Below, piece by piece: positions 926-52,592 of a DNA stretch of 64,000 bases. A program made the position numbers and the translations under genes. Source of the stretch: Turritopsis dohrnii. Taxonomy: Eukaryota; Cnidaria; Hydrozoa; Anthoathecata; Oceaniidae. The stretch spans positions 153,866 to 217,865 of the forward strand of contig BQMF02000604.1 of assembly GCA_027922465.2 (NCBI GenBank), given 5' to 3'. Every line of letters starts with the position of its first letter. Position 1 is the stretch's first letter. Below the pieces are notes generated by a model. It saw only the letters and a list, made by a program, of their open reading frames with translations. It did not search any database and was not told where the DNA came from.

Positions 926-1035
926 GATTCTATTCGTGGGGATTGCCAGCCGGAGATACAGTTTACAACGGTTTTCAACTGATACCACTGAAAAAACCAA
1001 TGTTACTGTTTTCAAAGCATGCTGATTATGTTTAT
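926..1035 (+). CDS. Gene 1 exon: NIDO module, exon A (first in window)
   Basis: Acceptor TTTTAG before 926, donor GTAAGT at 1036. It encodes [10 protein letters not shown], then KPMLLFS and DYVY, the short N-terminal part of a NIDO module (usual pattern LYPFG..GD...PM.LFS....IY). The Trp in place of the usual Phe/Tyr also occurs in the gene 2 exon at 61092 (FYPWGMLAGD), which marks the two as counterparts. Phase 1 in, phase 0 out. Its exon B lies across a 4.75 kb intron. Confidence 0.8.
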
Positions 1036-4000: not shown

Positions 4001-7000
4001 AATGTTTTTAGATTAATATGCAATGCAAAGCAAATAAACGATCTTCCTTTTTCTAGCAGCATGAAGCCAAATTTAAAGGAAAATTAAGCTTTCGATTTTC
4101 TTTTTTAATTTTGAGGATGAAAGACTTCATATATATCCTAGATGAACACCTTTTTATGTATAAAAAGTATCCCAAATGAAAAAAATTGCAAAAAACAACT
4201 GAGTTAAATTACCATTACAGCTTTCTGTTTTCAAATTCATGATGTCACAGAGCCAATTTCTTTTACTAGATGTCTGACATTCATGAAAGTTTAGTGTCTT
4301 TGGAAATTCTGAATTCTAGTTTTGAAACTGACTTAAGTGATCGTAATAAAGATTAAGAATTAAAATCGGGTGGATTGGAAAACTTGCATTTGTGCTCATG
4401 CAAGACATATTCAAAGAAATGATGATTTACGAGTGTAAATGTTGCAGAAAGGATGAGTAACACCTCTTTATTATGAAAACAAAGATACACGTTTCCGACA
4501 AGGGATCATGTTGAACAACTTAAAATAGAATTATAAGGGACGGTTTCTATTCATAGTAACTTTCGAAATAACTGATTGTGTTTTTTATCTTTAACTTAAC
4601 ACAGCTTTCAGACAACCTTCCACGTAAACCTTATGATGAAAAACTAAATGAAACCAAGTATTATTTTTATTTGAATGAAGGTGAATATTTCAAAGGAGAA
4701 CTTTTACAACTCATCAAGCCAATGTTATAATGATTTCATTTGTCTTTTCCCAAATTCACTCTTTATCAGAATATTATCTGAATGAAGTTACATAAGTCAA
4801 TAAAGATCACTGAAAACGTTGCGATATGACCTATTCAGTTAAGGGCACATTTCCACTTGTTGAAGGTGAAATATCTGTTGAATAAAAATAATTCTCAACT
4901 GACATTTTCAACTGACTTTCCCTGAGGAAAATAACAATAAAAGTTTTTGCCAAGGGATTTACCAAAATAACTAAAATAGAATTAGAGTGGACAGTTTAGT
5001 TTTATTATTGTTAAATTTCGAACTAACTGTTGTATGTTTTATTTTCAGCTGAATGAGAACTGGGTAACAAGTTGATTTTGATACACAAATGTCTGTTATT
5101 TGTAATGTATACATAAAAAGAATATATGTTACCAAAGGGCTGTTAGTAAAAGTTCCCTGTCTATTATAAATTGAATAACACAGTCTTTTCAAATGGAAGA
5201 TTTAAACCTATGAAGAAAAAAAAACCATTAATAAATTTTCGACACATCCTTTCTTTTAAAAGATGCTAATCTTTCAACCGTCTAATTCATGAGCAGGTGA
5301 TTTGTTTTGTTTCAGAGTTTAATGACGTCAATTACTTCATCATGAAGAATAAAAACAAAAATTCAGAAAGAAACACATTTGATCAACCAGCAATTAGCTA
5401 ATTTAAGACTTGACTGGGCCTTAAAAATGGCGGAATAAACAAACATAGTATAAACAAACATTAATATTTTTGAAAACATGCATCGCTGTTGATTAGCTAC
5501 TTTACCATGCGTCTCAGATGCTACCGGTAAATCACATTATATGTATTTTTTATGTTACATTACATTACCAGTAATTACCGGAAAGCTGGGAATTTACTGA
5601 TATATTACTATAATTACCGGTAATTGCTAAAAAAAATCTTAAGTTGCGCATATTGGTAGATCAAATATACTTTTTTCCCCATGAACAGTCCCATTTTATA
5701 ATTAGCAATATAATATCTGGTAACAGTTACAAGAAATCAAATTGATGATAGCTGTTTTCAAATACACTTCACTTTGTTTTATTTTTTAGGTTTCTCCATA
5801 CGGTAGCATTCTTGTGAACAAGCGTTATGATCTAAAAAGTGTTGCAGTCCCACATCCATACACAGTTCTGTCAGCTTACACAAAAAGGTTTTGTATAAAA
5901 TGTTTAAATACTGCAATTGTCTACTACAGGGAGGTTTTTGATACAAAAGTTTTGTCGAATATCAGTCTTTCTGTGCGTTCCTATTCAAATTCTACCTTTA
6001 CTGGAACACATGCGTTCATAGCAACATGGCTAAATATTGGTGTTAAACACAACATATTTCAAGCTGTCATCATCACAGATGATAGCAAAACATATGCAGT
6101 GTTGACATATGCTGTACTGCAGGAAAGTTATGCTGATGCAGCTTCATCAGATAAAGGTTGTCCAGCCTCTGCAAAAGTATTTATAGAACGGGAATACAGT
6201 TATGAATTAGAATACACATCCAATATTGGTGTGGAAGGAAGACATGTATTTATGCTGACAGGAGATTGCGATCAAGCAGGTCAGATTATAATTTTTGTAA
6301 CAATACATTCCCATTGTTCCCATTATGGCAATTTAGACTTATTACTGTATTCACAACTAAGCACTTCAAAGTAAATCCCAATTTTTTCTTATTTTCAATG
6401 AAATAAACAGTGCATGTTTTTTAAACCATCCCTTCCCTTTGGTTGTGTTTTGTCATGTCATCAAAAAGACATTGAAATGGGTACATTCTCTCACTTTATG
6501 AAACTACTACTGCAGAGTTCCAGTATTGTCTAAAATTGAAGATTGCTCTTAACTAAGTCGAAATTTTGCTTTTCACTTGAAATGTAGTATTTTATCTAAT
6601 TACAAGGTTATAATGTTAATTTTGTTTCTATTTTCTTAGAATTATATCCATTTGGTAAAAATTCAGGCGATACCATGATGAAATCTGGGAATGATATTGT
6701 GGAGCATTTAGTTCTTCAAAAGCCCATGAAGTTGTTTGCTAATCCAGCAACGGATGTTTTTGTAAGTACAATGTGATTAATTATTTAACACTAGTGTTTT
6801 GATGATTTTTTTGTTTAGCCAGGTATTATCTTTATATAATCTCAATACAATAAGGAACGCTGAACTCAAATTTGAAGCCGGACATGACCCATATTGACAA
6901 AAGTAATATAAATTTAACTTGATTTTGTACTGATTCTCATTCAATCTAAGACGTATTTACTTCTTAGATTAGTGTAAATGGCCTTATATCCATTAATAAA

Positions 7001-10000
7001 CCAATTGATGACATCAACATTGCACTACCTTATGAAGAAATTGTTTTGGTTCCTTATGGTATTGATTTGGATACAACAGCTGCTGGAAGCATTTATTATC
7101 GTGAAGACTCTACTGGAGAAATATTGTATAAAGCAAGTCAAGATGTTGAAAGATACCTTGGGTTTAGCTTAAATCTTACCAATGCTGTTATAGTTACTTA
7201 TCTTGATGTCCCGTTAAAAGAATCTCCAACTTTTAAGCATACTTTCCAAGTGGTGATTGTCTCTGATGAGACATACACCATTGCCATATTTAATTACATT
7301 CGACTTGATAGTTCAGGAGCAGTAGTTGGGTTTTCAGATGGGTTGTGTTACCATTCAAGATTTAAATCCTCTGGAACTAGTGATCAAATGACATCAGTTA
7401 CTAATGTGAATATTATTGGACGGTTCATAAAAAGAATATCCTCATATTATTGTGAAGGACAACGTCCAGGTAATTTTACCATATCATTTCTGAATGTTAC
7501 TTTGGTGAATTGAGAGCTGAGGTAAAATAGTTTTATGATAACATTTTTTTCTTATATTTTGTGAAAACTCAGTTTTTATTGCATTTTTGTCAATGCAATA
7601 ACTAAAATTCATTAAAGATATGTTCGTATTAAAGATATGTTTGTATTATGGAACACAATAAAAATCTCTCCCACAACACCAAGCTGAAAATTAGCTGCCA
7701 AAATCAAGATCAGTACCTTCCAATTGCTATTTGAATATTTTTTCTTCAATATTTTGTCCCAATTTGTTGGAAAGTTTGTGTAAATGTTGCACAAATTGTT
7801 CAAGTAAAGGTAATAGTGGTATCAATTGTTCAAGTTTGTGGCACCGTAGTGTAGTTGTTATCACTCTCGAAATTCCTGCGAGAGGTTGGGGGTCAATTCC
7901 TCTTTGTGACAATTCACCATTCGTGAGTGAATATGTCACAGCACCCAGGTCGACCCATGCCGTGTGAGGGAAACTGGGTAGATGATATATTGGTCAACCA
8001 GGAGAGCACAGACCCTTGATTTGGCCCATGCCACTCACTCAAATACTTCAGAACCTCCAACCTAATCCATGGCATCACCTGGAAAACAGATGCAATAGCA
8101 GCTCTGAAAATCGCCATCTTTTTTAAATTTCTAAATGCTAAGAGAAGTTTGTAATGTCACAAAGTAGATCAAAAAACCAGAATGAGTATTTAAAACTAAG
8201 CAATGGCCTTTTCATTGAATAGAATTTATCACAACCAAAGTATAAAACCTTAAAAGGTATCCTTTAGAAAATGACAAACATTTAGTTTTGTGCATTGATA
8301 AAGAAAAACTAAAAAGAAAAAGAAAACTGAACAAAGGAGACTTAGAAGAAATGAAATCGTTGAAGATTCTGCTAGTTTCAAATAAGTTTCCTGGCTCACA
8401 TGATTATTTACAACGACTTTTATTTTTTTAATTTTTTTTCTTTTTTTCTTTTTTTCTTCTTGTTCTCCATGAGTACAAAATATACAGTCATGTGCCCACA
8501 AGGTAGATTGTTGGGAGGCTACAAAACTATAAGTCCTGGAGATATGTGTAAATATAGTAACTAGGCTATACTAAAACAGATCAACAAAAAGACCAATAAA
8601 AACATTCCTATTTAGGCAAAAAACAGCTAAAGCAGTCCATAGATTTTCTATAAGTTAAACAGTGCTGTATAAATTTTCATAGTTAGTGATGCATTTTTTT
8701 TTTGACTCATTCAAAATTATTGAAATAGATTTATGAATCATTCATTTGAATTTAAAAGACAAAAAAGGGCAATCACTCTTACCTGTTATTCCCTGCATTC
8801 TGGTTATTCTTAGTTGATGACATCAAACACATTCTTCATTATTCATCACATTAGAGCAGAATTTCCATAAACATCATATTTTGATCAGAATCAGTATTTG
8901 AAATAAAAAGACTTTTCAAATTACTGTTCATCGTCAGTACTAAAGTAAGATGAAGTCTATTATGCGAAGTTACAAAAACGCGTTCATTTAGTTACTATGG
9001 TTACATATACATATATTTACAAGTTGAATAAAAGGCAACAAAAGCGATTGAGATGCAATTAAAAATCATTTCTAAAAAGATTAAGTATGTTGAAAGTTAC
9101 ATGTTAATTTAAAGGAGTTCTCAATAGGGATACAAAGAAAGCTTCTAAGTTCTTTTGTGTTCTTGTACAATTCGGAGTGGCTGATAAAATGGACCAATTA
9201 AATTTATGATGGAGACATTAACTTTATCTGTTTTGAAGGTTCTGAATTTCCATTTTGATTTGTTTTGTTTATTTAACCTACTCTTCACATTTCACCAACA
9301 TAAGCTTCACCACACAAACATTTACCCGGGTGAGTCAAAAAAAGTACTGGAGTTCCACCACACATATCTGTAGATTGCATAATTATGAAAGATAGTTTTA
9401 AGATAGCAAAGACACATCATTACCATGGCAGAACTTATCGTTTCACTTGATAAAATTGACCACCAACTTTAGAGAGAAATATGAATATTTACTTGTTTAT
9501 CCTACATAAAATACAAATCATCATTTTTTAATTAATAGACTAGACTTGTTTAAAAGAAAAATTAAGGTATTTTACCATCTAATAAATTCAAAACCATCTT
9601 TTCCTTTGAATTACAGTGTACCAGTAAGTAATCTATCAAAACACATGTTATCAAAATGGGAAAAACAGCTGTTAAAGTATGATTTAGATCATAATTTTGT
9701 ATACAAAAACAAATAGAAAAACATCAATAGCAATTTCAATTTCAGCCCTGACGAGGAGTTTGAAAAGCATTTGTTGATTTTAGATATGCATTTTATAAAA
9801 ATAAACATGTCTTTTTATTTCAATATTGATTATGATGGCTACTTTTTACTATTATAATCAATATTGTTTTATAATCTACATTACGATCAGAGAGTAACAA
9901 AGATGTAAAATTATTACTGTTTTACTAAAATTCACAGTAAATAGCCTGATTTGTGAAACAACAATATACTCTCTGATGTCATATGCAGCAATTATGAGAT

Positions 10001-13000
10001 GAGTTCGTTCAAATAGTGGCATGTGTTAGTAAAACGTATGCAGTTATTTTGTGTTTTTCAACTGTTTTACATTGAATTAGAAAAAGAAAATTATATTTTC
10101 GTGTTCAAAATAATTTATTTATTTTGATAAGTTGTTAATTGGCTGGAGGGAAGCTTTAAAGACTTTAGTTAGGAATTTTAAAATCTTGGGTGTAAGATGA
10201 GTCCTATGAAACTTTCTTACATTACTGTAGAATTGTGTCAATGTCAAATGACAAAAAACTACATGGATTAGACAAGTTCTTATTCCATGTATGGTATATT
10301 TTTAAAACCAAACACAGTAGCAATTTTTTTTTAAAAAATCTGTAGTCTAGATTACAAAGTTAGGTATGGAGTATAATCAAGAATATGGTGTAGAAATGGA
10401 GTAGAAAAAAGTGATTGAAACTTTTGTCAGGAATTTCACCTTTAATGCTTTAAGGCTTTAGACTAATTAATTACTTCAATTAATCTCTGCCGCAGAACGT
10501 TTTAGGTCACACAACTATGTCAACCTTTTTAGTGCCATATCCTTTTGGTGAAAAAAACGGTGACAATGTTGCATCATATGGTCTTAACACATTATACTTA
10601 GTCAACCCATTCATGTTCTTCTCCACTCCAACATGGGAAGTACAGGTAAGGAATAGCAGTAGGTGTAGTTTTTTGAGTGAAATCGAAACCCTATACAATT
10701 TTAAGGGAATAGTTTATAGAATCTAAAAGCTTTATTTACTTCTAGATTGGTGAAAGGGGATTTGTGACTGTTGATTCTTACTTTCAACAAACAATGACCT
10801 TGCAACATACTTCTGCATTTTTTGCTGTTTATGGTAAAGACTTATCCACACGCAAATATGGTTCAGTTTATTATAGAGATATATATGATCTATCTCAATT
10901 GACCACGTTCTCTCAGGATATGAAGTTGCACTACAATATTTCCTTCAACGTCTCGTATGCAATTCTTGTTACATATTATGATGTAAGATTGTTTGATACA
11001 ACAAAATACAAGCACAGCTTCCAGGCTGCATTTGTGAGTAATGGATATGATACATATGCTATTATGAAATATTTTCGACTTGATACCAATAATGCTTTGG
11101 TTGGCTTTTCTGAGCGTTTTTGTAGTGAACATACTATAATTGAACCAAGAGATAGCTGGGATTTAGAAGATACATCCAACACTGGTACCCCAGGCCAACA
11201 CGTATTTAAAGTGACATCACCTTGCAAAGAAGGAGGTATTTAAGTTTTCCTTTGTTTCCTTTAATACCAGTTCGCTCTCTAGAATTCCTATTCTTTTATA
11301 TTTTTGTTTTTTTACTGGGTACACTTCTATTAATTTTATTTCAGCCTCAATTTCTGTCACATGTTTTTTTGGATTTGTCTTTCTATTCAATCTTTTGTTT
11401 GCACTAACAGAGCTCTACCTATATGGTGAAGATGCAGATGATAAAGTCATGCTTCCTGGTGATGAATACTATGAACATTTAATTCTAAATCAATCTTTTC
11501 CGTTATTTTCATCACTTGCAAAAGATATATATGTAAGAATTCTTTTTATTTATAAAATAATGTTCCAGGGGATTTTTACATGAAGAATGACACCTTGTTT
11601 GAATAACTGAAAAACATTTAGGGGTTAAACATTAATTATGGTTTATCTGTGAATGGCATTGATGTTATAAAGTTATTTGCAAAACATATATAAATACTAG
11701 TATCTCGCGTAAAAGTTTTTTACGACTTTAATTTCCCGTTCCCGTGTGTGTACCGCATGACGAAAATTTCAATTACGGAATTGGGACTGGAAAATGTGCC
11801 CATGTTGTAGAGCTTGAAAAGCTGATCAAAAAAGTGTATGGGATCGTTTCGCTACGATCAACCGTTGCAGAGATATCGTCGATCAAAGATTTTAATGACG
11901 TCATATCCGCAGTACCAAATAAAATTTAGGCCCAAGTGTTGCGTCACCCCGTCACCCGTATCGCCGACCCTCAAAAACGTCAGTTATTCCTATTGGTTCT
12001 CGAGATATTTCCCCAAAAACGTCGCGTTCGATTGGGGATGCAATGCAATGAATCCCCCCGTGATGCGATAAAAAAAAACTGACGTCACGCCGCGTGCTAT
12101 TATATTAATCGTCAATTATCAATGGTCTAACGAAAAAATGACCACGATTAAGAAGATTTTGACCATTAAAAAAACAAAAACACAACACTCTCTAAGTTAA
12201 ATGTGTTACACACATTGCGAATTAGTATATATAGACTAGTATCTCGCGTAAAAGTTTTTTACGACTTTAATTTCGAAACGGATGTGCAAGAATCCTGCGT
12301 TACCGTGTGAGAACCCCGTGACGAAAATTTCAACTACGGAATCGGGACTGGAAAGCGTACCCATGTTGTAGAGCTTAAAAAACTGATCAAAAAAGTGTAT
12401 GGGATCGTTTCGCTACGACCAACCATTGCAGAGATATCGTTGATCAAAGATTTTGATGACGTCATAGTCGCAGTACCAAATAAAATTTGAGCCCAAATGT
12501 TGCGTCACCCGGTCACCGGTATCGCAAGCCCTAAAAAACGTCAGTTATCCCCATTGGTTCTCGAGATATTTCCCCAAAAACGTCGTGTTCGATTGGGGGG
12601 GATGCAATGCAATGGTTCCCCGTGATCATAAAAACATCTGACGTCAAATGCAAGATGCTATTATACTAATCGTGAATGTGTCTTGCGTGGTCGAACCACC
12701 GCTATTATTATTATTTATTTACTACTGATGATTGTGTGAGCATGAAACTAAACACAATATACTCTACTTGACTTATCATTTACTTCAATGTAAAAGAGCA
12801 CAACACTTATATGAAGATATCTCATAACAACTGATTGAACTTTCTACCAGTTACCGAGTCTTGGCATTCACTTTTTACTTTATTATTAATGCCTATGATA
12901 ATTGATGATATTGGATCTATAGCTAGGTACCTTTATTAAAGACATGTCTGAGGTCTATTTTCAAAATAAAGCGAAAACTATTGCATGACTAAAGTAATAT

Positions 13001-28000: not shown

Positions 28001-31000
28001 CCAAATGATGCGTCACCCCATCACCCGTATCGCTGACCCCAAAAAACGTCAGTTTTCCCTATTGGTTCTTGAGATATTTCCCCAAAAACGTCGCGTTCGA
28101 TTGGGGATGCAATGCAATGATTCCCCGTGATCATTAAAAACTGACGTCAAATGATGCCACGTGCTTTTGGAATGATCGTGAAAAAAGTGTCTCTCGCATC
28201 TACGTGGTTTTACGCGCACATAAGAGGACGATGACCGTAAATTTAAACTAAATATATCACTCTCTAAAATAAAAGTGGGATGCACAACGCGGATTATTAT
28301 AATAAGATACTTTGGGGTAAACATCATAGGCAAATAACTAATAATCATAAGCAATCAAATGTTTTACTAACACAAATATACGTAGCATTTCAAATTAGGA
28401 CCGAAGAGTTATTTTCAAAATAGAGATGGGCTTAAAATAAAAATTTATAAAACCAAATTCAAGTATCAGAATAAACATCTCTGTTCAAAAAAATGTGTTC
28501 ACACTCATTGTTTATTATGTGATAAAAATGACCTTCATAAATCCAAAATGGAAACGAACAACAGATTTTCATAGTGAAAATACACATCCACAACCAAACC
28601 ACTACATAGCTGAAAACAGAAGTTTGCATTCTGACTTGATTTAATTTACAGACTGTCTATCATGTTGGATTGTGTTTTGATTTACGTTTGTTGTTCGTAA
28701 GAAAAATTGTCAGTATATACAGGCACTTCCATGAGACGCGTGCGATAGCGATAAAAAAATTTGCGCGTGTGATACGTTGCACGCCCAAAACTTGATACAG
28801 CACTTGTCATTTTTTCATTATTATTTGTTAGGGTTCATGTGCTGAAATGTTATTCCTTGTGGTTGTCCTTTAACTTATTTTTATGACAAGTAAAAATTCT
28901 TCTGATCTGAATTTATAATTTTTTAATCTTGCATAGGTAGTACATGCTTCGCGCACACAAGTAACATTAAGTTGGTTTTCCACTAGGCGAATAATGTGCG
29001 TTGAAAGATTTCTTTGCAATCTCATTGGTTCACCAAACCGAGAGAATATTACTGCGCCAATCAAATTGCAGAAAATCTTTCCTCATCGACATTCTTCTTC
29101 TAGTAGAAAACCGCCTTTAACAAGTAAATGGACACCCTTTCTGTGATGTAATTTCAATAAAGTGGCTTATAAAATGTTTGGTCAGTGAAACTCTTCTAAG
29201 ACGTTTGTTATTATGAGATTTCAGCTGGTCATTACCAATGACGTCAAAGTTTTTGAAAGGAATTTAAATAGATTAACGGGTAATGTACATTACATTTTTG
29301 CTTACTTATTTTAGGCACATTTTCATTTGTAAAGAACTTTATTATTAACAAAATATAACAACTGTATAATCTGTACGGTGGAGTACTGTCCTCAAAGTCA
29401 ACAAAACAACATTTTTGAGTTTTGTCGACCAAAGCTAAAAGATAGCAAAAACGAAAAACACATTCTTGATAACAGCTTGAAGAATTTACGAAACAATATC
29501 TTCAAAGTCTATATCGAAATCAGAGACGACCTAATCTGTTATCATATTTTTATACAGAACACTTAACTTTAAATTTATTTTATGAAGTGCAAAGATAAAC
29601 GGCAGTCAGTCTCTAGTGTTTGGGGTTCACTAGTTAAATTGTATCCCCGCAACTTCACTAATTGTAAACAAACTCATTGAATCTGCTGAGTAAGCTAAAT
29701 TCAACTGTATAATTCAATCTGAGCACCCTAAGAACTTCGTCTGATTAAGCGCTGTAAAGTTAAGAAAAATACTATTTCATGGAAATTAAAATCGCACGCG
29801 CAAATCAGTAAAATCAAGTTTGCGCATGCGAAGTACTGCACGGAAGAGTTTTTTCTCACGGAAGTGCCTGATATATATATACATTTTGAAAAATAAAATA
29901 TGATAAGCATCAAAACAGTATACATGACCATAGAATTCATCCATAATAAACTATGTTTCTGTTGTTGGATTAAACAACTATCCAAGTACGCTCCACCAGA
30001 TTCTCTCAAGTTATTATGTGTCTCAATCCAAAATGTGTATTAAAATTATTATACGTAAATGGTTTTCTGAACTTTATATTGTATATACGACATCACATAT
30101 TTACTTGCTGTTTTTGAATTAACGTAACTGGTTGAACTGGTGGTTGATCTCCACGTGAAAAGGGATTCCATGCTGTACATCATTATTGTGCTTTCCAGTG
30201 TTCAGTTGGGCTATACATTATATATACGTCAGGATCATACTAAATAAATCTTCAGCTTGGTTATTGAGAATGAATTTTCACCTTTGCACTGGAATCAAAG
30301 CTTCAATGGTTTGTTGTTCCAAGCATTTAATTATCAATATCATCATCATAACACATTGTTATCAACACAAAAACAAAACATACCAATGTTGGTTTTTTTG
30401 TTTGTTTGTTTTTTACACGTTCATTCAAAAATTTTTACAACTTTTTAAGAAATAAAACGATTTATTTCCATCATTTAACGTTTCATCTATTGAATTATTA
30501 AAGCTAGAAAACATTTTCAAACGTTTTCAAAATCCCATCTGCACTGACACTGACTGAAAAGATGGCGTACCACTTTACTGGAGACTAGCCTCTAATCTTA
30601 TCTACCTTAGCTAGGCCAGAGTTCAATACTGAACTGCGGCTATAAAAGTGAACGAAAAGAAGGAGGAGAAGGAGGAGAAGGAAATGCCGGTTTTAACATA
30701 TATTTCGCCCTACGGGGAAATATATAATTAAGGAATGAATATTTATTTTATTTCCTCATACATAAGTGCCATTCCATTAAAGTTGATTTTGACATTTTCT
30801 AATTCATTCATCCATTGTGTTAATATTATTGATGCATTGTTAGCATTAAAAATTTGCATTGGTTTTTATTGTTTAACATGGAAAAATATGATACTTATAC
30901 AGTAAGTCCATTTTTTTATAAAGATAAATATGCAAATGAAACCATAGCATTGCCTAGTGAAAAACTGTGCTGACAGTCCAGGAGATTTTGGTAATAAAAC

Positions 31001-34000
31001 ATTTTATACTGTTGCAAACGTTTTACAATTCTTTGAGACAGACAGACAGATGCCTTCCCATGCAAGGAGACAGGTCTCACCTATAGATGAGGATCACAAC
31101 ACCGGGTAAGGGACCTCGAAAGATATAAACTATAACTAGATGAAAAAACTAATAATAAAAACATATAAACTAGAAAACAAAATAAAACAAATTAAAAAAA
31201 TAAAGAAATATTCTAATTGGAAAAAAGTATTAAGTCAAATTTCTAATCATTTCATTCCATTCCAAACCATTTCCACCCAAAACAAACCAATTATCAACAT
31301 TTATTCCACATTTGGACATACATTTTCGAATCGAACAACCATACGTCATCTTTGGACACCCCCTGGGACGTTTGGATGCAACCCAAGAAGATAGCATCTT
31401 TCGGTGAAGACGATCCCAGCTCATCTTATTATAATAATCCGCGATTGTGCATACCACTTTTATTTTAGAGAGTGATATATTTAGTTTTAATTTACGGTCA
31501 TCGTCCTCTTATGTGCGCGTAAAACCACGTAGATGCGAGAGACACTTTTTTCACTATCATTCCAAAAGCACGTGGCATCATTTGACGTCAGTTTTTTATG
31601 ATCACGGGGAATCATTGCATTGCATCCCCAATCGAACGCGACGTTTTTGGGGAAATATCTCAAGAACCAATAGGGATAACTGACGTTTTTTAGGGTCAGC
31701 GATACGAGTGATGGGGTGACGCATCATTTGGTCCTAAAATTTATTTGGTACTGCGAATATGACGTCATCGCAATCTTTGATCAGCGATATCTCTCTAACG
31801 GTTGGTCGTAGCGAAACGACACTTTTGAGTTGCGATTCTATGATTTATTTTTTCGTCACGGGGTACGTACACGGGAATGGTGGATTTGACCTAATGTTTT
31901 CGAAGTTCAGTTCGGTAAAAAGTTTTTACCCGGGATACTAGTTCTACTTATATGACCAGACCATCTCAATTGCTGCCTCTAGATATAAGTTTCAATAGAT
32001 TTGATACCAACACGTTCAAGACGTTCAGCGGTTGAGATTTGATGTAAATATGTATGCTTTCAATGTACTTTGCAGATATTGCGGAAACAATTATGGCAAA
32101 AATTACGAATCTGCCTCAGCATAATTTTGGTCATACACCAGCATTCACTACCGTAAAGGAGAATCGGTAGAATTAACAAACGAAATATCGAACCTTTGGC
32201 ATGATTGGTAATATCAGAAGATAAACATTTTCTCAACATTCCGAAAACACCACTTGCTATTGAAATACGGGTATCCACATCTTTTTCGTCGGCACAATCA
32301 TTAGTAACAATAAATGGGTAAATAACGGTTTTTATCAATAATCACATCAGATAGGTCAACATCATCAAGGGTTTCAGGGTTTCATACATGAATATTGGTT
32401 TCGCACAGAACAATATCTCCGTTTTAAAGACCGATTTGGGATTTAAAGCACCGGTGTGAATTTCCATTCCGAAACAATCGAAGTGAATGATTATCGAAAT
32501 AGATCCTTGCTGAATATAATCTTGGCTCTCAAATATCAAAGCAGTATCATCTGCATATTCAGAGTCAGGACGTTCGAAATCTTTTCCTATTGTAGTTATT
32601 CTACGACCGGTCATTATATAATCTTTCTTGGTACAGAAGACACAAAACGGGATACCACAAGATAACTTTCAGGTTTCAATCATGCGGTAATATAAAAGGT
32701 GAAGAGCAATTGGCCCAGGATATCACCCTATTTCACACCAACGATGCTGTTGATAGTACGGGCTACATTACCAAATTTCACTGCAAAGTCAGGATGTAAA
32801 GCAAGCAAAAGATTTATCAATGTCATGGGTATTCCATATTTCTTAAGTACCTTCCACAAAGCATTTCTTGGTACGCGATTGAAAGCTTCGACCAGATCCA
32901 GGAATAATACCCAAGTCTCTAGGCCGTTCTCTCATCTTTTCTTTATGGCAGTTTTAACAGTAAACACGGAATCCATACAGCCCCTACCAGTGTACGGTGA
33001 AGGATAATGGTGATTATCCTCGTAAGCATTTGCTAAGAGCATAATTCCTCGATAGTTTTTCGGAAGATGAAAGATCTCCCTTTTTCGGTAATCCATTCAG
33101 TCTGCCAATGTTCCATTCTTTAGGTGCTGTTTTTGTTTCCCAAAAATTGGTTATAACTGATTTCAGAATCTTTACTTTTCAATTTTGAGATAGCAGTTTT
33201 TATATCTTGGGGGAATTCCATCACAATTTACAAAAACTGGTCTTTGAGAGAGAAGATCTAAGACTGTTTCATCATAATTTACATGATTTCCATAGAGTTT
33301 TTGGAAATAATCATTGAAAATGGTAGCATTTTCTTCTGGGGTTTTGCATTAACTACCGTCAGGTTTTTTCAATTGTTTTTGGGTTGCAGGTTTCACTTTT
33401 GACAGTCCTTTCTTATTTACTGTATTTGCTGGTGTATAAGTCGATATTTTCCTATGTTGATTTAGTGCTTAAAGTCGACTTATACATCTGGTCAATTTCA
33501 TCATCGTTTTATCATTATCGCTAAACTTAAAATTGTTAAAAAAATCATTCTTGCAATTGTTTTACAATCACCTTCTGTACTCTGATCTTAATCAATTAAG
33601 CAACGATGATTGATTTATTGCACACCTGTTCTGGTGCGCAGGTAAAATAAAAATAAAAATTAATGTCTCAGCAAAAAATGACCAAATATGATCCATTTTA
33701 ATTAATTCGTAAAAGACAAGGAAACTAATGCAGTTTTATGTATAACGATGTCAATATAATTATTATGCTTGAAATATGTTTAGTTGTAGAAAGTGTGAAC
33801 CTGATAAACAAAATGATACAAAGAACACAACAAATCACACAAAATAACTCAACGCACATGTTCACTCTTGTATTTTCACGCGAGTTCATGTAGATTACTT
33901 CTGCAAATTATTGATAAAATGTATGCATGACAAGTTTAGAAAACCAGTTTTCTTTGCTGCGAAAAAATTATGCACTTTCCACGTTTGATCAGATGAAAGA

Positions 34001-37000: not shown

Positions 37001-37978
37001 TTACATCAAAACATTTTACTTTTCTTGACACAAAGCAGTTTCAATTTTAAGATGTGTTATTAACTCAGCCCTGCTGAAAACCCTTTTCCTTCCTTGGTCC
37101 AAGGAAAGACCTTAGTTGGTTTGGCCAATAGCCTTTCAACGATTTATGCTTGTTTACTATAAGAAATTCTTCTGAATACATGTTTTTTTTTGTTGTTTTT
37201 TTTAAATCACTCGCCCCACTCAAGGCCAAAGCCACTACAAGGAGTGGGGCTACATATTCCGGAGGTTCATCACAGCATTAGTCTCCCTGAATAGGGGTGG
37301 CCATAAAATAGAGGGGGAGGGGGGTGGAGGGGGTTAAGACCCCTGAAGAAACTATGACCTGGCTGCCTCTCTCCCGAAAATTTCCAAAAAATATGAAATG
37401 TTGCAGAAGAGAAAATTAGACAGACCTCATAGCTGCTGAAGTAACTGCTCAATGGCTTTGATAAGAATGATTATTTTTCTGGATATCTCATCTTTTAAGG
37501 TTAAAATCATTTTTTAAATGTTTTTTTTTTCTCAACATTTTTTACAAGTTTTTATCAAAATCCTCTGGACCATCACATATCCATTGCATTTGCATTGTTT
37601 CAAATTGTCTTTTCCAAATTCTACTTTTTCTACGATTTTCACCTCTATGAAAAATTTAAGGTTTCCTTTTGATCTTCATACTTTTACCATTTTATCTATA
37701 CTGTTATTTGTGAAGAGCTGATTTTGTAATATTTACTTTATAATTATTTCAATTTGTATTTCAGTTATGCCATCACTGATGAGTGCAACGAATCAGATCA
37801 CAGTTATGTTACTTTGAAAAGCACAGAAGACAGTGGTGATCTTATAAATCAGACTAAAAAGAAAAGTGTTACATTCAATGAAGAGCATTCATATCTTTTC
37901 TTTGACATTGATGATGCTCAAAATGATATTTCCGATGAGCAAGGAATATGCGAGAATAATATGATTGATGAGCATTAG
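926..37978 (+). CDS. Gene 1: NIDO-repeat receptor tyrosine kinase, 5' incomplete (21 exons)
   Basis: Single-pass cell-surface receptor kinase. Order seen: six NIDO modules (exon pairs from 926 to 16217), two FN3-like exons (18142-18456, 18620-18901), a transmembrane exon (20092-20249), five kinase exons (21932-26103) and a tail exon ending in TAG at 37978. Every exon length agrees with the splice phases, giving about 1929 residues without a break, so this copy looks functional. The first exon in the window enters in phase 1 and matches the seventh module of gene 2, so roughly six modules plus a signal peptide probably lie upstream of base 1. Tyrosine phosphorylation of substrates is inferred from intact kinase motifs; the ligand is unknown. 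NIDO domains occur in nidogen, tectorin and mucin-4 type matrix proteins, so a matrix ligand is plausible. Confidence 0.85.
1036..2124. other. Intron start: pogo/Tigger-like end and TACCGGTAA-rich stretch
   Basis: First part of the 4.75 kb intron of the first module. At 1507-1600 there is a TIR-like end (CAGTACACATCCGTTAATTC, then repeated TTCGAATTA/GTTCGAA motifs) as in pogo/Tigger elements; I found no partner end. At 1835-1980 the palindrome TACCGGTA recurs several times; a second cluster lies at 5520-5640. No coding exon recognised. Confidence 0.4.
2125..3933 (+). mobile_element. Non-coding repeat with TATATTTCCCC ends, copy 1
   Basis: A 1.8 kb block that recurs in reverse complement at 26141-30730. 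Shared sequence begins TAATTATATATTTCCCC. Near the other end is GGGGAAATATA followed by a small hairpin (TCGCATTTTTGCGA) and CTTGTTT, where similarity stops. It contains CT-rich and hairpin-forming parts and small ORFs without family resemblance. It looks like a non-autonomous transposon; the class is uncertain. Confidence 0.6.
3934..5789. other. Intron remainder with internal repeat
   Basis: Two related stretches, 4470-4640 and about 4960-5080 (AAATAGAATTA...TTTCGAA.TAACTG), lie in tandem here; a third copy in reverse complement lies at about 20700-20835. The TACCGGTAA-rich stretch at 5520-5640 precedes the exon at 5790. No coding potential recognised. Confidence 0.4.
5790..6279 (+). CDS. 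Gene 1 exon: NIDO module, exon B
   Basis: Starts after TTTTTTAG and ends at GCAG|GTCAGA. It encodes the NIDO core: [23 protein letters not shown], then [18 protein letters not shown]. The usual APYGLD.DT..GG segment is replaced by a divergent [11 protein letters not shown] stretch with two extra cysteines, so the fold may differ here. Length 490 nt, phase 0 in and 1 out. Its frameshifted counterpart in gene 2 is at 61810-62290. Confidence 0.85.
6640..7469 (+). CDS. Gene 1 NIDO module (exons 6640-6761 and 6968-7469)
   Basis: Exon A encodes [11 protein letters not shown] ... LQKPMKLFA ... DVF. After a 206-base intron, exon B encodes [41 protein letters not shown] and [10 protein letters not shown]. 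This is a full canonical NIDO module. The end region ([17 protein letters not shown]) departs from the usual SNIGV.GRHVF.LT. Gene 2 has a near-copy at 63124-63888, identical over long stretches but with one base deleted. Confidence 0.88.
7838..8118 (+). mobile_element. tRNA-derived SINE
   Basis: Pol III promoter boxes: A box TAGTGTAGTTG (7847-7857) and a B box near GGTCAATTCC (7891-7900), spaced as in a tRNA. A non-tRNA body of about 200 bases follows (GTGACAATTCACCATTCGTG onward). It lies in the intron after the second module. Confidence 0.65.
8119..10532. other. Intron without recognisable feature
   Basis: AT-rich DNA with a T/K-rich low-complexity stretch around 8410-8460. I see no exon, inverted repeat pair or coding similarity. 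The CAG at 10493-10495 could be an alternative acceptor, but TTTTTAG at 10532 is in register with the NIDO exon. Confidence 0.4.
10533..11235 (+). CDS. Gene 1 NIDO module (exons 10533-10645 and 10746-11235)
   Basis: Acceptor CTTTTTAG|TG; exon A encodes [11 protein letters not shown] and [15 protein letters not shown] 100-base intron follows. Exon B encodes [42 protein letters not shown] and [18 protein letters not shown]. The PYGLD.DT segment is only weakly kept ([17 protein letters not shown]). The two late cysteines shared by most modules, after GFS and before the donor, are present and may form a disulphide. Confidence 0.87.
11411..11532 (+). CDS. Gene 1 exon: NIDO module, exon A
   Basis: Acceptor CTAACAG at 11410, donor GTAAGA at 11533. 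It encodes [23 protein letters not shown] and [12 protein letters not shown]. Phase 1 in, 0 out, 122 nt, the commonest exon A length in the locus. The following intron contains two Helitron copies in tandem. Confidence 0.85.
11697..12235 (-). mobile_element. Helitron, tandem copy 1
   Basis: On the minus strand the element ends with a perfect hairpin followed by CTAG; on the + strand this reads CTAGTATCTCGCGTAAAAG at 11697. Its 5' TC end abuts the next copy at 12235/12236 without a spacer. Interior contains TGACGTCA, GCAATGCAATG and conserved blocks but no transposase, so it is non-autonomous. Confidence 0.75.
12236..12701 (-). mobile_element. Helitron, tandem copy 2, 5' truncated
   Basis: Starts CTAGTATCTCGCG directly after copy 1 and matches it through the TTTGATGACGTCATA and AATGCAATGGTTCCCC blocks. 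Similarity is lost near the TATACTAATCG that matches an internal part of copy 1, so its 5' end is missing or rearranged. Confidence 0.65.
12702..13114. other. Intron without recognisable feature
   Basis: AT-rich DNA between the Helitron pair and the exon at 13115. Nothing recognised. Confidence 0.4.
13115..13619 (+). CDS. Gene 1 exon: NIDO module, exon B
   Basis: Begins [13 protein letters not shown] after CTATATAG, runs through [39 protein letters not shown] and [10 protein letters not shown], and ends with [12 protein letters not shown] at the GGTATC donor. It carries all NIDO landmarks except that the SNIGV.G motif reads [11 protein letters not shown]. 505 nt, phase 0 to 1. Confidence 0.86.
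13753..14491 (+). CDS. Gene 1 NIDO module (exons 13753-13874 and 13996-14491)
   Basis: The clearest module in the window. Exon A encodes [11 protein letters not shown] ... RNMLLFS ... KYVV. After 121 bases exon B encodes [62 protein letters not shown] and [19 protein letters not shown]. This matches the NIDO consensus of the nidogen/tectorin/mucin-4 families closely enough to name the domain family. Confidence 0.9.
14690..14811 (+). CDS. Gene 1 exon: NIDO module, exon A
   Basis: Encodes [18 protein letters not shown], then [12 protein letters not shown] and NIY before the GTATGT donor. 122 nt. The usual GD after YPFG is ED here, but PPGD follows. The next intron (14812-15709) has no feature I can name. 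Confidence 0.86.
14812..15709. other. Intron without recognisable feature
   Basis: AT-rich DNA separating exon A from exon B of the last NIDO module. No repeat partner or ORF with family resemblance seen. Confidence 0.4.
15710..16217 (+). CDS. Gene 1 exon: last NIDO module, exon B
   Basis: Begins [13 protein letters not shown] after CAAATTAG. It encodes [70 protein letters not shown] and ends at ATTCAG|GTAATA. This is the membrane-proximal NIDO. The intron after it holds the THAP/SWIM TIR element and leads to the FN3 exons. Confidence 0.88.
16381..16830 (+). CDS. THAP-type zinc finger protein (in transposon)
   Basis: Begins [15 protein letters not shown]2CH THAP pattern: C..GC at residues 6-10, [14 protein letters not shown] and CGVHF (C-x2-H), all within the first about 80 residues. 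THAP domains bind DNA, typically in P-element-type transposases and domesticated relatives. After the finger the frame runs into a GTA-repeat microsatellite giving a Val-rich stretch, probably not real protein; the true C-terminus may use a splice site. I chose the Met that starts the THAP core rather than the one 10 codons earlier. Confidence 0.7.
   Translation: MPTLCCIVGCSNKQSKEGDLSFYRIPKVILNQGEQMKSITERRRNCWVAAINRGDISYKKSDSWRVCGVHFIGGSPANALDETNPDWVPSLKLGYVKSDPQNNACSSSSASGCIVVLLVVVVVLLVIVVLPGMKGVLVERRGYLKGIWK
17099..17170 (-). tRNA. tRNA-like sequence (gene or SINE head)
   Basis: On the minus strand a full cloverleaf can be drawn: acceptor GTCCTGG with TCAGGGC (7 pairs, two G-U), D stem GTCT/AGAC, anticodon stem CTTGT/ACAAG around loop GTTAACC, T arm CCAGG-TTCAATC-CCTGG. 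The loop places UAA in the anticodon, read as Leu, but the variable loop is short, unlike nuclear tRNA-Leu. It is therefore more likely a tRNA-derived repeat or pseudogene. Confidence 0.55.
17277..17729 (-). CDS. SWIM-zinc-finger-like transposon protein, partial
   Basis: From [19 protein letters not shown] at 17729. Recognisable segments are [35 protein letters not shown] and [16 protein letters not shown], ending in CHCTC. These resemble invertebrate proteins that continue with a SWIM zinc finger (CxC...CxH) and often a YqaJ-like nuclease. Only the first Cys pair is reached before the frame runs out, so a downstream exon or a truncation is likely. Divergent with the THAP gene in the same element. 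Function not established. Confidence 0.6.
   Translation of the reverse strand: MSSYFSSLPVTARKRYEEKISLIGSQDPYQIPDREWSTDPDTFPPITYIDMVNYLVLDQSPFYSMQDFKNYKSLESYDRFLSGWIQKIQSFNHTVDNKTFIVLRARVLHSQRLSEKPVSCGIISNNNGEISSCHCTCIMIIYVYPCSMEE
17893..18141. other. Intron end before the FN3 exon
   Basis: Host intron sequence resuming after the TIR element. Nothing recognised. Confidence 0.4.
18142..18456 (+). CDS. Gene 1 exon: fibronectin type III domain
   Basis: Begins [17 protein letters not shown] after TACATTTAG. The FN3 pattern is visible: P.DLQV, a Trp in VEIIWK, the HYVIYITS strand, then [20 protein letters not shown]. One whole FN3 domain in one phase 1-1 exon of 315 nt, a common arrangement for shuffled extracellular domains. 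It links the NIDO stack to the membrane. Confidence 0.82.
18620..18901 (+). CDS. Gene 1 exon: second, divergent FN3-like domain
   Basis: Phase 1-1 exon of 282 nt beginning [21 protein letters not shown], which keeps the first FN3 strands and the core Trp. The second half ([11 protein letters not shown] ... [13 protein letters not shown]) is harder to align and contains one Cys. FN3-like is the best call; an unrelated juxtamembrane domain cannot be excluded. Confidence 0.7.
19115..19645 (+). mobile_element. Helitron copy with worn 3' end
   Basis: 5' end A|TCATACTTATTCGC, then CACACTTTTATTTTAGAGAG and the conserved interior. The 3' hairpin survives only partly (TTGGTAAAAATGTTTATATC) and the CTAG is lost. 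It lies in the intron between the second FN3-like exon and the transmembrane exon. Confidence 0.68.
19646..20091. other. Intron without recognisable feature
   Basis: AT-rich DNA up to the transmembrane exon. Nothing recognised. Confidence 0.4.
20092..20249 (+). CDS. Gene 1 exon: transmembrane helix and juxtamembrane segment
   Basis: Acceptor TTCATTTAG, donor CAG|GTAATC. After the acidic DSVDGSND comes a hydrophobic run of about 22 residues ([19 protein letters not shown] and on to IGF), then [10 protein letters not shown], a positive inside flank. This fixes type I topology, NIDO outside and kinase inside. Phase 1 in, 0 out. Confidence 0.85.
20250..20839. other. Intron with an inverted repeat copy
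   Basis: About 20700-20835 is the reverse complement of the repeat at 4470-4640 (GGGATCATTGAACAA, AAAATAGAATTA, TTCGAAATAACTGATTG on the minus strand). The rest is plain AT-rich intron. Confidence 0.4.
20840..21289 (-). mobile_element. MITE with CAGGG-TTTTTCCAAGCACTTT ends, copy 1
   Basis: TIRs CAGGGTTTTTTCCAAGCACT and, at the other end, AAGTGCTTGGAAAAATCTCTG. Flanked by AAAGAT on both sides (target duplication of about 6 bases). About 450 bases, no ORF. It lies in opposite orientation to the copy at 39069-39531. Confidence 0.72.
21290..21931. other. Intron without recognisable feature
   Basis: DNA before the first kinase exon. A small ORF at 21575-21904 has no family resemblance. Confidence 0.4.
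21932..22181 (+). CDS. Gene 1 exon: tyrosine kinase N-lobe, glycine loop and beta-3 lysine
   Basis: Acceptor ATTTGCAG. Encodes the juxtamembrane [16 protein letters not shown], then the glycine-rich loop GEGAFGQVW and the ATP-binding Lys in VAVKTLKG. Between them is an insert of about 25 residues ([20 protein letters not shown] onward), longer than the usual beta-2/beta-3 turn. FGFR, VEGFR and PDGFR kinases also have an insert here, but this one is basic and has one Cys. Ends in phase 1. Confidence 0.88.
22383..22669 (+). CDS. Gene 1 exon: tyrosine kinase alpha-C to alpha-E
   Basis: Acceptor TTTAG|GG. Encodes [20 protein letters not shown] (alpha-C Glu), LLGACT, hinge [19 protein letters not shown] and [14 protein letters not shown], stopping just before the catalytic loop. 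The [12 protein letters not shown] and ILEYC motifs resemble the FGFR/VEGFR/PDGFR-like receptor kinases. The kinase insert is short. 287 nt, phase 1 to 0. Confidence 0.9.
22690..23605 (+). mobile_element. Penelope-like retroelement, 5' truncated, with GIY-YIG domain
   Basis: Reading frames, with shifts, give the end of a Penelope-type reverse transcriptase ([23 protein letters not shown]), a linker ([20 protein letters not shown]) and a C-terminal GIY-YIG endonuclease-like part ([20 protein letters not shown]) ending [10 protein letters not shown]. The catalytic YVDD part is absent. At least one frameshift after SGYTP. Dead copy inside the kinase intron. Confidence 0.75.
23649..23999 (+). mobile_element. 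Helitron copy, short (351 bp)
   Basis: Complete ends: A|TCTTATTATAATTATCCGC and hairpin ATAAAAATTTTTACCCGGGT then TACTAG|T. Internally deleted relative to the 518-571 bp copies. It lies just downstream of the Penelope-like fragment. Confidence 0.78.
24000..25081. other. Intron without recognisable feature
   Basis: AT-rich DNA up to the HRD exon. Small ORFs only, none resembling a known family. Confidence 0.4.
25082..25275 (+). CDS. Gene 1 exon: catalytic and activation loops of the tyrosine kinase
   Basis: Begins [13 protein letters not shown]: catalytic Asp in HRD and the AARN signature of receptor tyrosine kinases. Then [10 protein letters not shown] (DFG Mg-binding Asp), activation-loop tyrosines in [20 protein letters not shown] and the start of the alpha-F region, SKSDS. 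All catalytic residues are present, so activity is expected. 194 nt, ends in phase 2 at GATTC|GTAAGT. Confidence 0.93.
25384..25618 (+). CDS. Gene 1 exon: tyrosine kinase C-lobe
   Basis: Continues [23 protein letters not shown], then [26 protein letters not shown] and NDLDRVIV. The usual SDVWSFG reads SDSWSFG here, a Ser in place of Val/Ile at the exon junction. HCW and RPTF close the kinase domain. 235 nt, phase 2 to 0; the donor is AAT|GTAAGA. Confidence 0.92.
25949..26103 (+). CDS. Gene 1 exon: post-kinase tail, first part
   Basis: Acceptor TTCTGTAG, donor CCG|GTAAGT. Encodes [20 protein letters not shown], then [15 protein letters not shown] and GDQNEN. No domain recognised. SIYK is the one tyrosine. 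Phase 0 to 2. The final exon is 11.66 kb away. Confidence 0.75.
26781..27743 (-). mobile_element. Helitron, long divergent copy (tandem with next)
   Basis: Begins CTAGTATCCCGTGTAAAAAC after AAAA and ends AGTATATAGA directly against the next CTAG at 27744. The interior differs from the other copies and is AT-rich, but keeps TGCAATGCAATGGTTCCC. No helicase ORF. A second subfamily or a composite. Confidence 0.65.
27744..28307 (-). mobile_element. Helitron copy, complete (564 bp)
   Basis: CTAGTATCCCGGGTAAAAAC at one end, TTATTATAATAAGA|T at the other. The hairpin GGTAAAAACTTTTTACC is perfect. Right flank TACTTTGGGGTAAAC continues the host repeat as in copy 1 (near 3222-3240). The small ORFs in it recur in all copies as shadows of the repeat. 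Confidence 0.82.
28720..29870. mobile_element. TIR element CAGGCACTTCC, 1151 bp
   Basis: Ends CAGGCACTTCCATGAG and, in reverse complement, CAGGCACTTCCGTGAG. The flanks rejoin the host repeat (CAGTATATA / ATATATATAT). Subterminal GCGCGTG motifs near both ends. No transposase ORF. The CAGGC start is compatible with hAT-type elements, but the target duplication is masked by TA repeats. Confidence 0.68.
30731..31229. other. Intron stretch, nothing recognised
   Basis: Host DNA between the large repeat and the LINE. A-rich stretch at 31140-31210 on the side of the LINE 3' end could be its tail. Confidence 0.35.
31424..31941 (+). mobile_element. Helitron copy, complete (518 bp), inserted in the LINE
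   Basis: A|TCTTATTATAATAATCCGCG ... GGTAAAAAGTTTTTACC CGGGATACTAG|T. Cutting out exactly this interval rejoins the LINE frame as [14 protein letters not shown] with no duplicated base. This defines both ends and shows insertion between A and T, as expected of Helitrons. Confidence 0.9.
33418..34119. mobile_element. TIR element TACTGTATTTGC, 702 bp, inside the LINE
   Basis: Ends TACTGTATTTGCTGGTGTAT and, reverse complemented, TACCGTATTTGCCGGTGTAT. Subterminal direct and inverted ATAAGTCGA / GTCGACTTATACA motifs. No ORF of note. MITE. Confidence 0.65.
34652..34859. mobile_element. MITE with long TIRs (AATAGACCTTTTCGGAAA)
   Basis: About 45-base imperfect inverted ends: AATAGACCTTTTCGGAAAAT at 34652 and the reverse complement of AATAGACCTTTTCGGAAATT ending at 34859, each followed by ACGTCA and AGATCTT.CCTCG. 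208 bases, so it is essentially two arms and a short loop. The minus-strand ORF across it is an artefact. Confidence 0.75.
34862..35164 (+). mobile_element. tRNA-derived SINE with TTAC-repeat tail
   Basis: A box TGGTGTAGTGG (34881-34891) and B box GTGTTCGAGTCC (34923-34934), a body of about 200 bases, then a (TTAC)n tail at 35144-35164. CTATTTG is repeated on both sides (34855-34861 and 35164-35170), a target duplication, so the insertion is complete. Confidence 0.82.
35171..37764. other. Last gene 1 intron, distal part
   Basis: Mostly AT-rich with no gene. About 36585-36670 (CAGTCTCCTGTGTTTGGGGTT) resembles 29590-29650 inside the CAGGCACTTCC element. A G-rich stretch lies at 37310-37335. 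No further exon of gene 1 recognised before 37765. Confidence 0.35.
37765..37978 (+). CDS. Gene 1 last exon: cytoplasmic tail with Tyr motifs, ends in TAG
   Basis: Acceptor GTATTTCAG. After completing CG|T (Arg) it encodes [40 protein letters not shown] and ends IDEH. The tail is acidic and has SYVTL and SYLFF tyrosines that could dock SH2 proteins or act as YxxΦ sorting signals (inference). A mutated copy lies at 47861-48050, and conservation of the Tyr region between them supports a real exon. Confidence 0.8.
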
Positions 37979-38695: not shown

Positions 38696-38750
38696 ATGTA
38701 TATTATTGCCATTAATTTAATTGCAGTGATTGCTGCAGCATTTGGTGTAG
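38696..38750 (+). CDS. Signal-peptide exon (middle gene)
   Basis: ATG at 38696: MYIIAINLIAVIAAAFGV then G|GTAAGT. Hydrophobic, with small residues before the likely cleavage site just ahead of the first NIDO exon. Phase 1 donor fits the NIDO A acceptor. The gene 2 counterpart is 52538-52592. Confidence 0.65.
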
Positions 38751-39916: not shown

Positions 39917-40035
39917 AGTTTTATCCATATGGATTCAGTTATGGTGATTCTAAAATGGATATTGAAAACAACTATGCCTTATTAAATCTTACTCAGCCAA
40001 TGTTATTGTTCTCTGTTCCATTGTCACAAGTAAAG
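39917..40035 (+). CDS. NIDO module 1, exon A (middle gene)
   Basis: EFYPYGFSYGDSKMD, YALLNLTQPMLLFS and SQVK between TTCCATTAG and GTAAAC. Intact and 119 nt, matching 53051-53169 of gene 2 at most residues. Confidence 0.68.
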
Positions 40036-40185
40036 GTAAACGAATCAAAATATTTCAAAATCAACTGCAGCCTAAACTCTGTCACATCAATAGAGTTTCA
40101 GTAGCCGTTTTAGAAATATCGAAATCTGCTATTTTCCATTTTCAGATATAAACTTCCAAATTTTTCTGTTATGAACTTTTTGCCA

Positions 40186-40505
40186 GATTCTATTGTCAAA
40201 TGATAAGAGCTTTGTTGCAAATCACTCTATTGTTACTACTTTTCTAGAGTTGCCAACTCGATATGATGGTTTTCTGAAAAATTCTTTCACTTACCAGGCC
40301 ATTCTTGCAACTAATGGTACTGCAACATATGCCATTTTGAATTATCAGCGATTGGATGAACCGAATGCAAACGTAGGTTACAAAGATGAATTTTGTGCAG
40401 AGGAGATATTTATTTCAAAGAAACGAAGATCACTGCTATCCACTTCAAACATTGGTGTCATGGGAAGGCATGTGTTTTCACTGACAAATAAGTGCATAAA
40501 GAAAG
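40186..40505 (+). pseudogene. NIDO module 1, exon B lacking its 5' half (middle gene)
   Basis: Sequence matching the gene 2 intron (CCAGATTCTATTGTC) jumps directly into the middle of exon B (NDKSFVANHSIVTTF). About 200 bases with the acceptor, the VNG segment and the YYRE segment are gone. The remainder, up to SNIGVMGRHVFSLTNKC and the GGTATT donor, is still open, so loss was probably recent. Without an acceptor this exon cannot be spliced normally. Confidence 0.75.
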
Positions 40506-52537: not shown

Positions 52538-52592
52538 ATGTATATTATTGCCTTTAATTTAATGGCATTATTAGCTGTGACATTGGGTGTAG
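52538..52592 (+). CDS. Signal-peptide exon of gene 2
   Basis: ATG at 52538: MYIIAFNLMALLAVTLGV, then G|GTAAGT. Length and phase equal those of the middle-gene copy, with differences mostly between hydrophobic residues, as expected of a signal peptide. Confidence 0.72.

Follow-up and report, generated by a model that had tools for sequence, protein, structure and literature searches.

In proteins of the nidogen, tectorin, MUC4 and SNED1 type, NIDO domains occur together with EGF, AMOP, vWD, ZP or similar partners. The original prediction for the locus described here took one NIDO domain per protein to be the usual case, and there are exceptions: a bullfrog protein (P0127) carries nine NIDO stretches and three further frog proteins (P0129, P0130 and P0131) carry four, three and two, all without a kinase. 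MUC4 (NIDO, AMOP, vWD) and ErbB2 offer an example of a NIDO surface protein tied to a receptor kinase; passages in one paper link MUC4 to receptor kinase signalling (PMC5354666), and a passage in another ascribes the MUC4–ErbB2 contact to EGF domains and not to NIDO (PMC6853952). Passages on the Venus kinase receptors describe an invertebrate receptor tyrosine kinase family set by its unusual ectodomain (PMC3703292), in which a Venus flytrap ectodomain is joined to an insulin-receptor-like kinase (PMC4026697). Cnidarians also have FGFR/VEGFR/PDGFR-type receptors, with Ig ectodomains.

We analysed a window of 64,000 nucleotides from the hydrozoan Turritopsis dohrnii, placed by genome search at C604:153866-217865, and the gene in it that we call gene A. 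Its NIDO array recalls those of the amphibian proteins but is joined to a kinase, and NIDO modules and kinase lie in one chain, whereas MUC4 and ErbB2 are two proteins. Like the Venus kinase receptors, gene A has an unusual ectodomain, but its kinase is of another kind and its window part has no Pfam match to a Venus flytrap domain. Its kinase belongs to the neighbourhood of the cnidarian Ig-type receptors, which are separate from it in a tree without outgroup; instead of an Ig-like ectodomain, Pfam finds NIDO and a weak fn3 in the window part of gene A, and EGF, AMOP, vWD, ZP or similar partner domains have no Pfam match in that part (modules 7–12).

The original prediction knew of no described receptor kinase with a NIDO array, and we likewise found none in the open-licence PMC literature among the matches listed. 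In the accessible text of a sponge genome paper 'NIDO domain' occurs once (PMC10280926), and the main text of a holozoan tyrosine kinome study, as accessible, contains neither NIDO nor nidogen (PMC8662651). Receptor kinase families are usually distinguished by their ectodomains, and a NIDO-array ectodomain appears to be undescribed; the NIDO-RTKs look like an apparently undescribed receptor family of their own. For this proposed family we take as defining features NIDO modules, a membrane-proximal FN3-like pair, an FGFR-like kinase and a YΦxΦ tail, all of which are found in gene A. The family is an example of a receptor ectodomain assembled from symmetrical phase 1-1 NIDO modules, and it includes a tandem cluster.

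Exon structure and domains of gene A

Within the window, gene A extends from 926 to 37978 on the plus strand in 21 exons, assembled from stop-to-stop frames and splice sites. All 20 introns are GT-AG, phase is retained across 20 of 20 junctions, and the model comprises a split first codon plus 1929 residues with a single, terminal stop. Because the splice sites were picked by hand with the reading frames visible, the phase agreement is a non-blind test of the model; its independent support is the agreement with Hydractinia proteins described below.

Position 926, where the gene had been thought to begin, is the first NIDO exon in the window. Since the first window module reads FYSWG and module 7 of the Hydractinia protein LOC130629879 (P0001) starts FSWG, six missing modules were predicted, and the window indeed truncates the gene: upstream on the same contig (C604:140188-151896) are a signal-peptide exon, identified by eye, and another six pairs of NIDO exons. 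A NIDO profile made from exons of the window located these modules 1–6. The Pfam search of the genome, which gives minimum counts, detects five of the six; module 2 was found only with the window-exon profile. The full model (C604:140188-191843) has 34 exons and encodes 3205 residues with 12 NIDO modules and a stop only at its end.

Each NIDO module is an exon pair with phase 1 at entry and exit and a phase 0 split inside, a symmetry that makes the module duplicable without breaking the frame. The window holds module 7 (926-6279; exons 926-1035 and 5790-6279), module 8 (6640-7469; 6640-6761 and 6968-7469), module 9 (10533-11235; 10533-10645 and 10746-11235), module 10 (11411-13619; 11411-11532 and 13115-13619), module 11 (13753-14491; 13753-13874 and 13996-14491) and module 12 (14690-16217; 14690-14811 and 15710-16217), all on the plus strand, as are the features that follow. 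Pfam recognizes all six stretches in the window part (PF06119; E 8.6e-119 for the whole protein, 394.7 bits where the cut-off is 25). Searched against PDB sequences, module 12 had no solved homologue at E ≤ 10; an AlphaFold model of its second exon (exon b) is mediocre (pLDDT 65), and its fold search gave 17 PDB matches at E ≤ 10 and none at E ≤ 0.001.

Two phase 1-1 exons follow. The first (18142-18456) scores 22.8 bits with the Pfam fn3 profile, under the cut-off of 25, and is 43% identical to the Hydractinia protein P0009 (LOC130630320); the second (18620-18901) is undetected by Pfam and 34% identical to P0009. We call these membrane-proximal domains FN3-like, a weak assignment that rests on the alignment of the pair with P0001 and P0009. 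The next exon (20092-20249) encodes the juxtamembrane region and, by hydropathy, the transmembrane helix, which is the single strong hydrophobic segment of the protein (best 21-residue window 2.35). The tyrosine kinase domain (21932-25618) is spread over four exons (21932-22181, 22383-22669, 25082-25275 and 25384-25618). The gene model continues with a first tail exon (25949-26103) and ends, in matching phase, with the last exon (37765-37978), which contains the rest of the tail, two YΦxΦ motifs (SYVTL and SYLFF, within HSYVTL and HSYLFF) of a class common to Hydractinia tails, and the stop; a diverged copy of this exon lies at 47862-48047. Further exons within the 11.7-kb intron that precedes the last exon could be missing from the model.

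All parts of a receptor tyrosine kinase are thus present: a signal peptide (by eye), an ectodomain, one transmembrane helix (by hydropathy) and a tyrosine kinase. The original description of six NIDO modules, FN3, a transmembrane segment and a complete kinase in about 1929 residues in phase holds, with FN3 reduced to FN3-like, and the proposed Pfam check for NIDO, FN3 and PK_Tyr returned the NIDO and kinase domains, with fn3 below the cut-off in one exon and undetected in the other. The central claim, a receptor tyrosine kinase with a NIDO-array ectodomain encoded by one gene, is borne out by the gene model, by Pfam and by single-chain Hydractinia proteins. Gene A is presumably transcribed in T. 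dohrnii.

Hydractinia relatives and the kinase domain

Of the six proteins found by a first protein search, the four best come from Hydractinia symbiolongicarpus, and three of these four carry both NIDO and a kinase. A search with the kinase found seven further NIDO kinases among the 120 matches listed, five from Hydractinia and two labelled 'lgn', which we take to denote an assembly of public reads. In Hydractinia, at least eight loci carry NIDO and a kinase, with a NIDO-only locus (LOC130629862) in addition; they lie on five contigs, and the database name of these NIDO proteins is 'uncharacterized protein'. P0001 (3107 residues) resembles gene A in having twelve modules by start motif (Pfam shows 11) whose order largely matches, regions that align with both FN3-like exons, the kinase and one tail YΦxΦ motif. 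Its identity to gene A is 38% across 98% of the searched part, and 54% for the kinase region. P0009 (1302 residues) has a kinase of the same subgroup, 62% identical to that of gene A, but two NIDO modules where gene A has twelve. Hydractinia is a laboratory animal, so the function of the NIDO array is directly testable there.

These relatives bear on whether our model has merged two adjacent genes, a secreted or anchored NIDO-array protein ending at 16217 and a receptor kinase beginning near 18142. A THAP-type element with inverted ends (16247-16266 and 17877-17896) does sit in the joining intron, and the annotation of Hydractinia LOC130629862 (P0002) consists of NIDO modules only. However, P0002 is 84% identical to residues 204–2228 of P0001 (modules 2–11) and ends there, which suggests that either the model or the gene is truncated. 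NIDO and kinase occur in a single chain in P0001, P0009 and P0013 and in the 'lgn' proteins P0010 and P0019; the latter two (1269 residues on a 4135-base contig and 1784 residues on a 5934-base contig) each consist of one open frame on a short contig and were therefore read as transcripts. Module 12 exits in phase 1 and the first FN3-like exon is entered in phase 1. Finally, a non-systematic look through frames of at least 22 residues, listed from 16964 on, revealed no signal-peptide exon ahead of the FN3-like exons, whereas such an exon precedes module 1 in each of genes A, B and C. We consider a merger of two genes very improbable, and treat gene A as one gene.

The original prediction proposed to seek the same architecture in sponge and cnidarian proteomes; the relatives found come from the hydrozoan Hydractinia. 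A wider taxon search (7995 candidates scored) found NIDO with a kinase in 3 of 23 matches, all from Hydractinia and none beyond it; this search missed four of its own six query proteins (P0010, P0011, P0012 and P0018), and its negative result for other animals therefore carries little weight. Among the 120 kinase matches listed, those from Hydra, Clytia and Nematostella are Ig-type receptors only, which suggests that the NIDO-kinase family may be restricted to some hydrozoans. Genome-wide, T. dohrnii has at least 150 NIDO exon matches (150 of the 219 candidates scored), some in long open frames; contigs with such matches include C14, C16, C37, C73, C174, C192, C152, C279 and C135 of the assembly (G000).

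The kinase domain matches PF07714 at E 2.6e-86 over profile positions 2–258 of 258. Its catalytic motifs are intact (G-loop, [21 protein letters not shown], SPE; [18 protein letters not shown]), read with the meanings usually assigned to them, and the activation loop contains a YY pair, the role of which is known from FGFRs. The receptor architecture together with the intact motifs makes an active receptor likely, and we predict kinase activity for gene A. In a PDB search FGFR1–3 make up 59 of the 60 matches listed (278–285 bits, nearly all over residues 13–319 of 320); the remaining match, which ranks first, is an EGFR entry whose score adds up two kinase copies at 161 bits apiece. By these comparisons the kinase is FGFR-like, of the FGFR/VEGFR neighbourhood.

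Among the 120 kinase matches listed, the seven NIDO proteins lead by identity (49–65%, all others at most 48%). By bit score P0007 and P0008, which lack NIDO and are 32–37% identical, come first, and P0014–P0017 outrank P0018 and P0019. Trees were built from hand-chosen tips, 10 of the 11 NIDO kinases (the truncated P0003 was omitted) and 18 Ig-type receptors from the 120 proteins listed. Without an outgroup the NIDO and Ig-type kinases are split with support of 100/100. Rooting with Eph places the Ig-type kinases within the NIDO kinases, mostly at weak nodes (30–87), and the NIDO kinases are then not monophyletic. The gene A kinase clusters with LOC130629879 and LOC130630320 in both (support 94 Eph-rooted, 84 without outgroup). 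P0018 (LOC130628517) and its 'lgn' relative P0019 lack the catalytic-loop asparagine (HRDLAART and HRDLGART) and have DLG in place of DFG; this subfamily is possibly a conserved pseudokinase.

Tandem cluster, module order and selection

The contig of the window is collinear with C2:1923.7k-2010.6k in long blocks about 93–98% identical, with large insertions between the copies, and C2 is most simply the other haplotype. On C2 the genes stand in a row: A, a remnant B with kinase fragments, C and D. In the window, gene B has a signal-peptide exon (38696-38750, plus strand, by eye; it resembles that of gene C), NIDO module 1 (39917-40495, plus strand; its first exon 39917-40035, its second truncated and starting at about 40199) and, at its end, a diverged copy of the last tail exon (47862-48047, plus strand) that is 56% identical to the gene A tail. 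Gene C, a tandem paralogue on the same strand, begins with a signal-peptide exon (52538-52592, by eye) and NIDO modules 1–8 (53051-63998), runs beyond the contig end and is continued in the C2 copy, where 12 NIDO modules (11 of 12 by Pfam alone) are followed by FN3-like, transmembrane, kinase and tail matches. Gene D on C2 has 12 NIDO modules (12 of 12 by Pfam), FN3-like domains, a transmembrane segment and the first part of the kinase, at which the examined stretch stops. Another twelve NIDO matches, at C2:2098056-2113290, hint at a further member, gene E.

Frame breaks in modules 3, 5, 6, 7 and 8 of the window copy of gene C raised the possibility of a pseudogene, which we rejected: the same exons are open in the C2 copy at 97.6–99.8% identity, so noisy sequence near the contig end is likelier. 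Modules 1, 2 and 4 are gap-free between the two copies, and module 9 of the C2 copy has a separate frame break. Many differences of one or two bases from the other copy occur at 61800-62300 and 59300-59878 (11 gaps in module 5, 7 gaps in module 7) and are probably sequence noise.

Genes A, C and D each have 12 modules, and in a tree modules of the same number group at 12 of 12 positions (support 100 at eleven, none printed at position 1). Between gene A and P0001 the same-position scores sum to 3555, against 2520 ± 166 in permutations, none of 20,000 of which reaches 3555; the best match of a module is on position for 8 of 12 and off position for 4 of 12, and module 3 is strongly diverged between the two proteins. 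In module trees of gene A and Hydractinia, five of six positions pair and module 8 of gene A groups with Hydractinia module 6, while in the exon-b tree position 12 alone is monophyletic with Hydractinia. The grouping within the cluster and the positional scores against P0001 point to twelve ordered modules as ancestral to the cluster, and probably to the genes of both species.

The original prediction proposed that NIDO copy number sets reach or specificity. Within the gene A subfamily this is not supported: since genes A, C and D all have twelve modules (and LOC130629879 twelve by motif, 11 by Pfam), the array is, as far as the gene models go, fixed and its copy number is not the subfamily's tuning device. 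A looser form of the proposal survives in the wider family, in which Pfam finds one, two and six NIDO stretches in P0011, P0009 and P0013.

For exon b, dN/dS is 0.29 between genes A and C (1787 codons) and 0.27 between A and D (1990 codons). The highest value for a single module is 0.39, or 0.44 for module 8 if the window copy of gene C is used; modules 5 and 9 of gene C contributed just 6 and 121 codons. For kinase exon K1, A against C, dN is 0.015 and dS 0.324 (83 codons); exon K2, with 3 codons, was excluded. As pairwise averages, these values indicate purifying selection in the pairs tested (A–C and A–D). Across modules dS runs from roughly 0.1 in module 12 up to 1.9 in module 3, a spread that suggests gene conversion in parts of the genes.

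The genes could also be a repertoire of allorecognition or immune receptors, arranged in tandem, evolving fast and carrying identity in the sequence differences among the copies. This would account for the row of A, remnant B, C and D (with E inferred from NIDO matches only), for the eight or more Hydractinia NIDO-kinase loci with the one NIDO-only locus, and for locus copies whose long blocks of about 93–98% identity are interrupted by large insertions. The dN/dS values, pairwise averages in which no module reaches beyond 0.39 (0.44 for module 8 when gene C is taken from the window), carry no sign of positive selection, however, and the module number is constant at 12 in A, C and D; we regard such a repertoire as unlikely. 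A broader suggestion, which we put forward tentatively and would sooner doubt than accept, is a hydrozoan class of tandem 12-site receptors in which the NIDO modules, each specialised for its position, together act as one long ruler along an ordered polymer, be it mucus, perisarc or matrix. It would unite NIDO surface protein and kinase in one chain, and gene conversion would keep the half nearest the membrane uniform, leaving the outer half to diverge from copy to copy.

Tail motifs and proposed signalling

YΦxΦ-type motifs are possible SH2 docking sites. In the nine of 11 NIDO-kinase tails that could be used (P0003 and P0011 end too early), we counted 18 such motifs with at least one per tail, against a mean of 1.7 and a maximum of 7 in shuffled tails (0 of 5000 shuffles reach 18), for a motif class that was defined post hoc, with the tails already inspected. 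An acidic residue stands at most three places before the tyrosine in 17 of the 18. With P0019 removed as near-identical to P0018, 16 motifs remain in eight tails, compared with 1.5 expected. The Ig-type control comprised 15 of 16 chosen proteins, one without an HRD motif having been dropped and one of the 15 having zero residues left; it contains four motifs, in 3 of 15 tails (shuffle mean 1.8; 308 of 3000 shuffles reach 4). Motifs able to dock SH2 proteins make a common downstream partner of the NIDO-kinase tails likely.

We are fairly confident that gene A encodes a single-pass receptor tyrosine kinase in which the twelve-NIDO array binds a partner and the kinase and tail signal. A signal peptide would export the ectodomain, with its twelve NIDO modules in fixed order and two FN3-like domains next to the membrane, and beyond one membrane-spanning helix would lie the FGFR-like kinase, its catalytic motifs intact, and a short tail. 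So long an array of ordered modules points to a ligand that is large or multivalent, most plausibly an extracellular partner (matrix, mucus or a protein of the cell surface), and binding of this partner might cluster the receptors. The original prediction had proposed a receptor that senses matrix or mucus. The clustered kinases would then trans-phosphorylate the activation-loop YY pair and after it the tail YΦxΦ tyrosines, which, once phosphorylated, could recruit SH2 proteins.

The array might instead serve as a matrix anchor of a decoy or adhesion protein, with a vestigial kinase and little signalling. Loss of the catalytic-loop asparagine in P0018 and P0019 implies that a change to the kinase is tolerated in that subfamily. 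In gene A, however, the catalytic motifs looked for are retained, the K1 exon has a dN of 0.015 against a dS of 0.324 over its 83 codons, and YΦxΦ motifs are enriched in the tails, so we judge a decoy role to be improbable and retain the signalling receptor as our reading.

The window also contains mobile elements and repeats. A transposon-like element with 20-base inverted ends (16247-17896) sits in the intron that separates NIDO module 12 from the first FN3-like exon; it includes a THAP-domain open reading frame (16327-16827, E 1.2e-10), a minus-strand frame without a Pfam match (17277-17819) and a minus-strand tRNA-Leu (TAA) call (17099-17170) that may be a tRNA-derived repeat. Two related retroelement-like fragments, possibly Penelope-like, lie in a kinase intron (22704-23500) and at 41818-42687; the latter gives a weak GIY-YIG match under the cut-off (E 0.022), and the other open reading frames scanned are without a Pfam match. 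A repeat family several hundred bases long is present in many copies in both orientations, mostly 73–91% alike, among them 11687-12677, 19112-19646, 27743-28308, 31422-31952 and 50907-51299.
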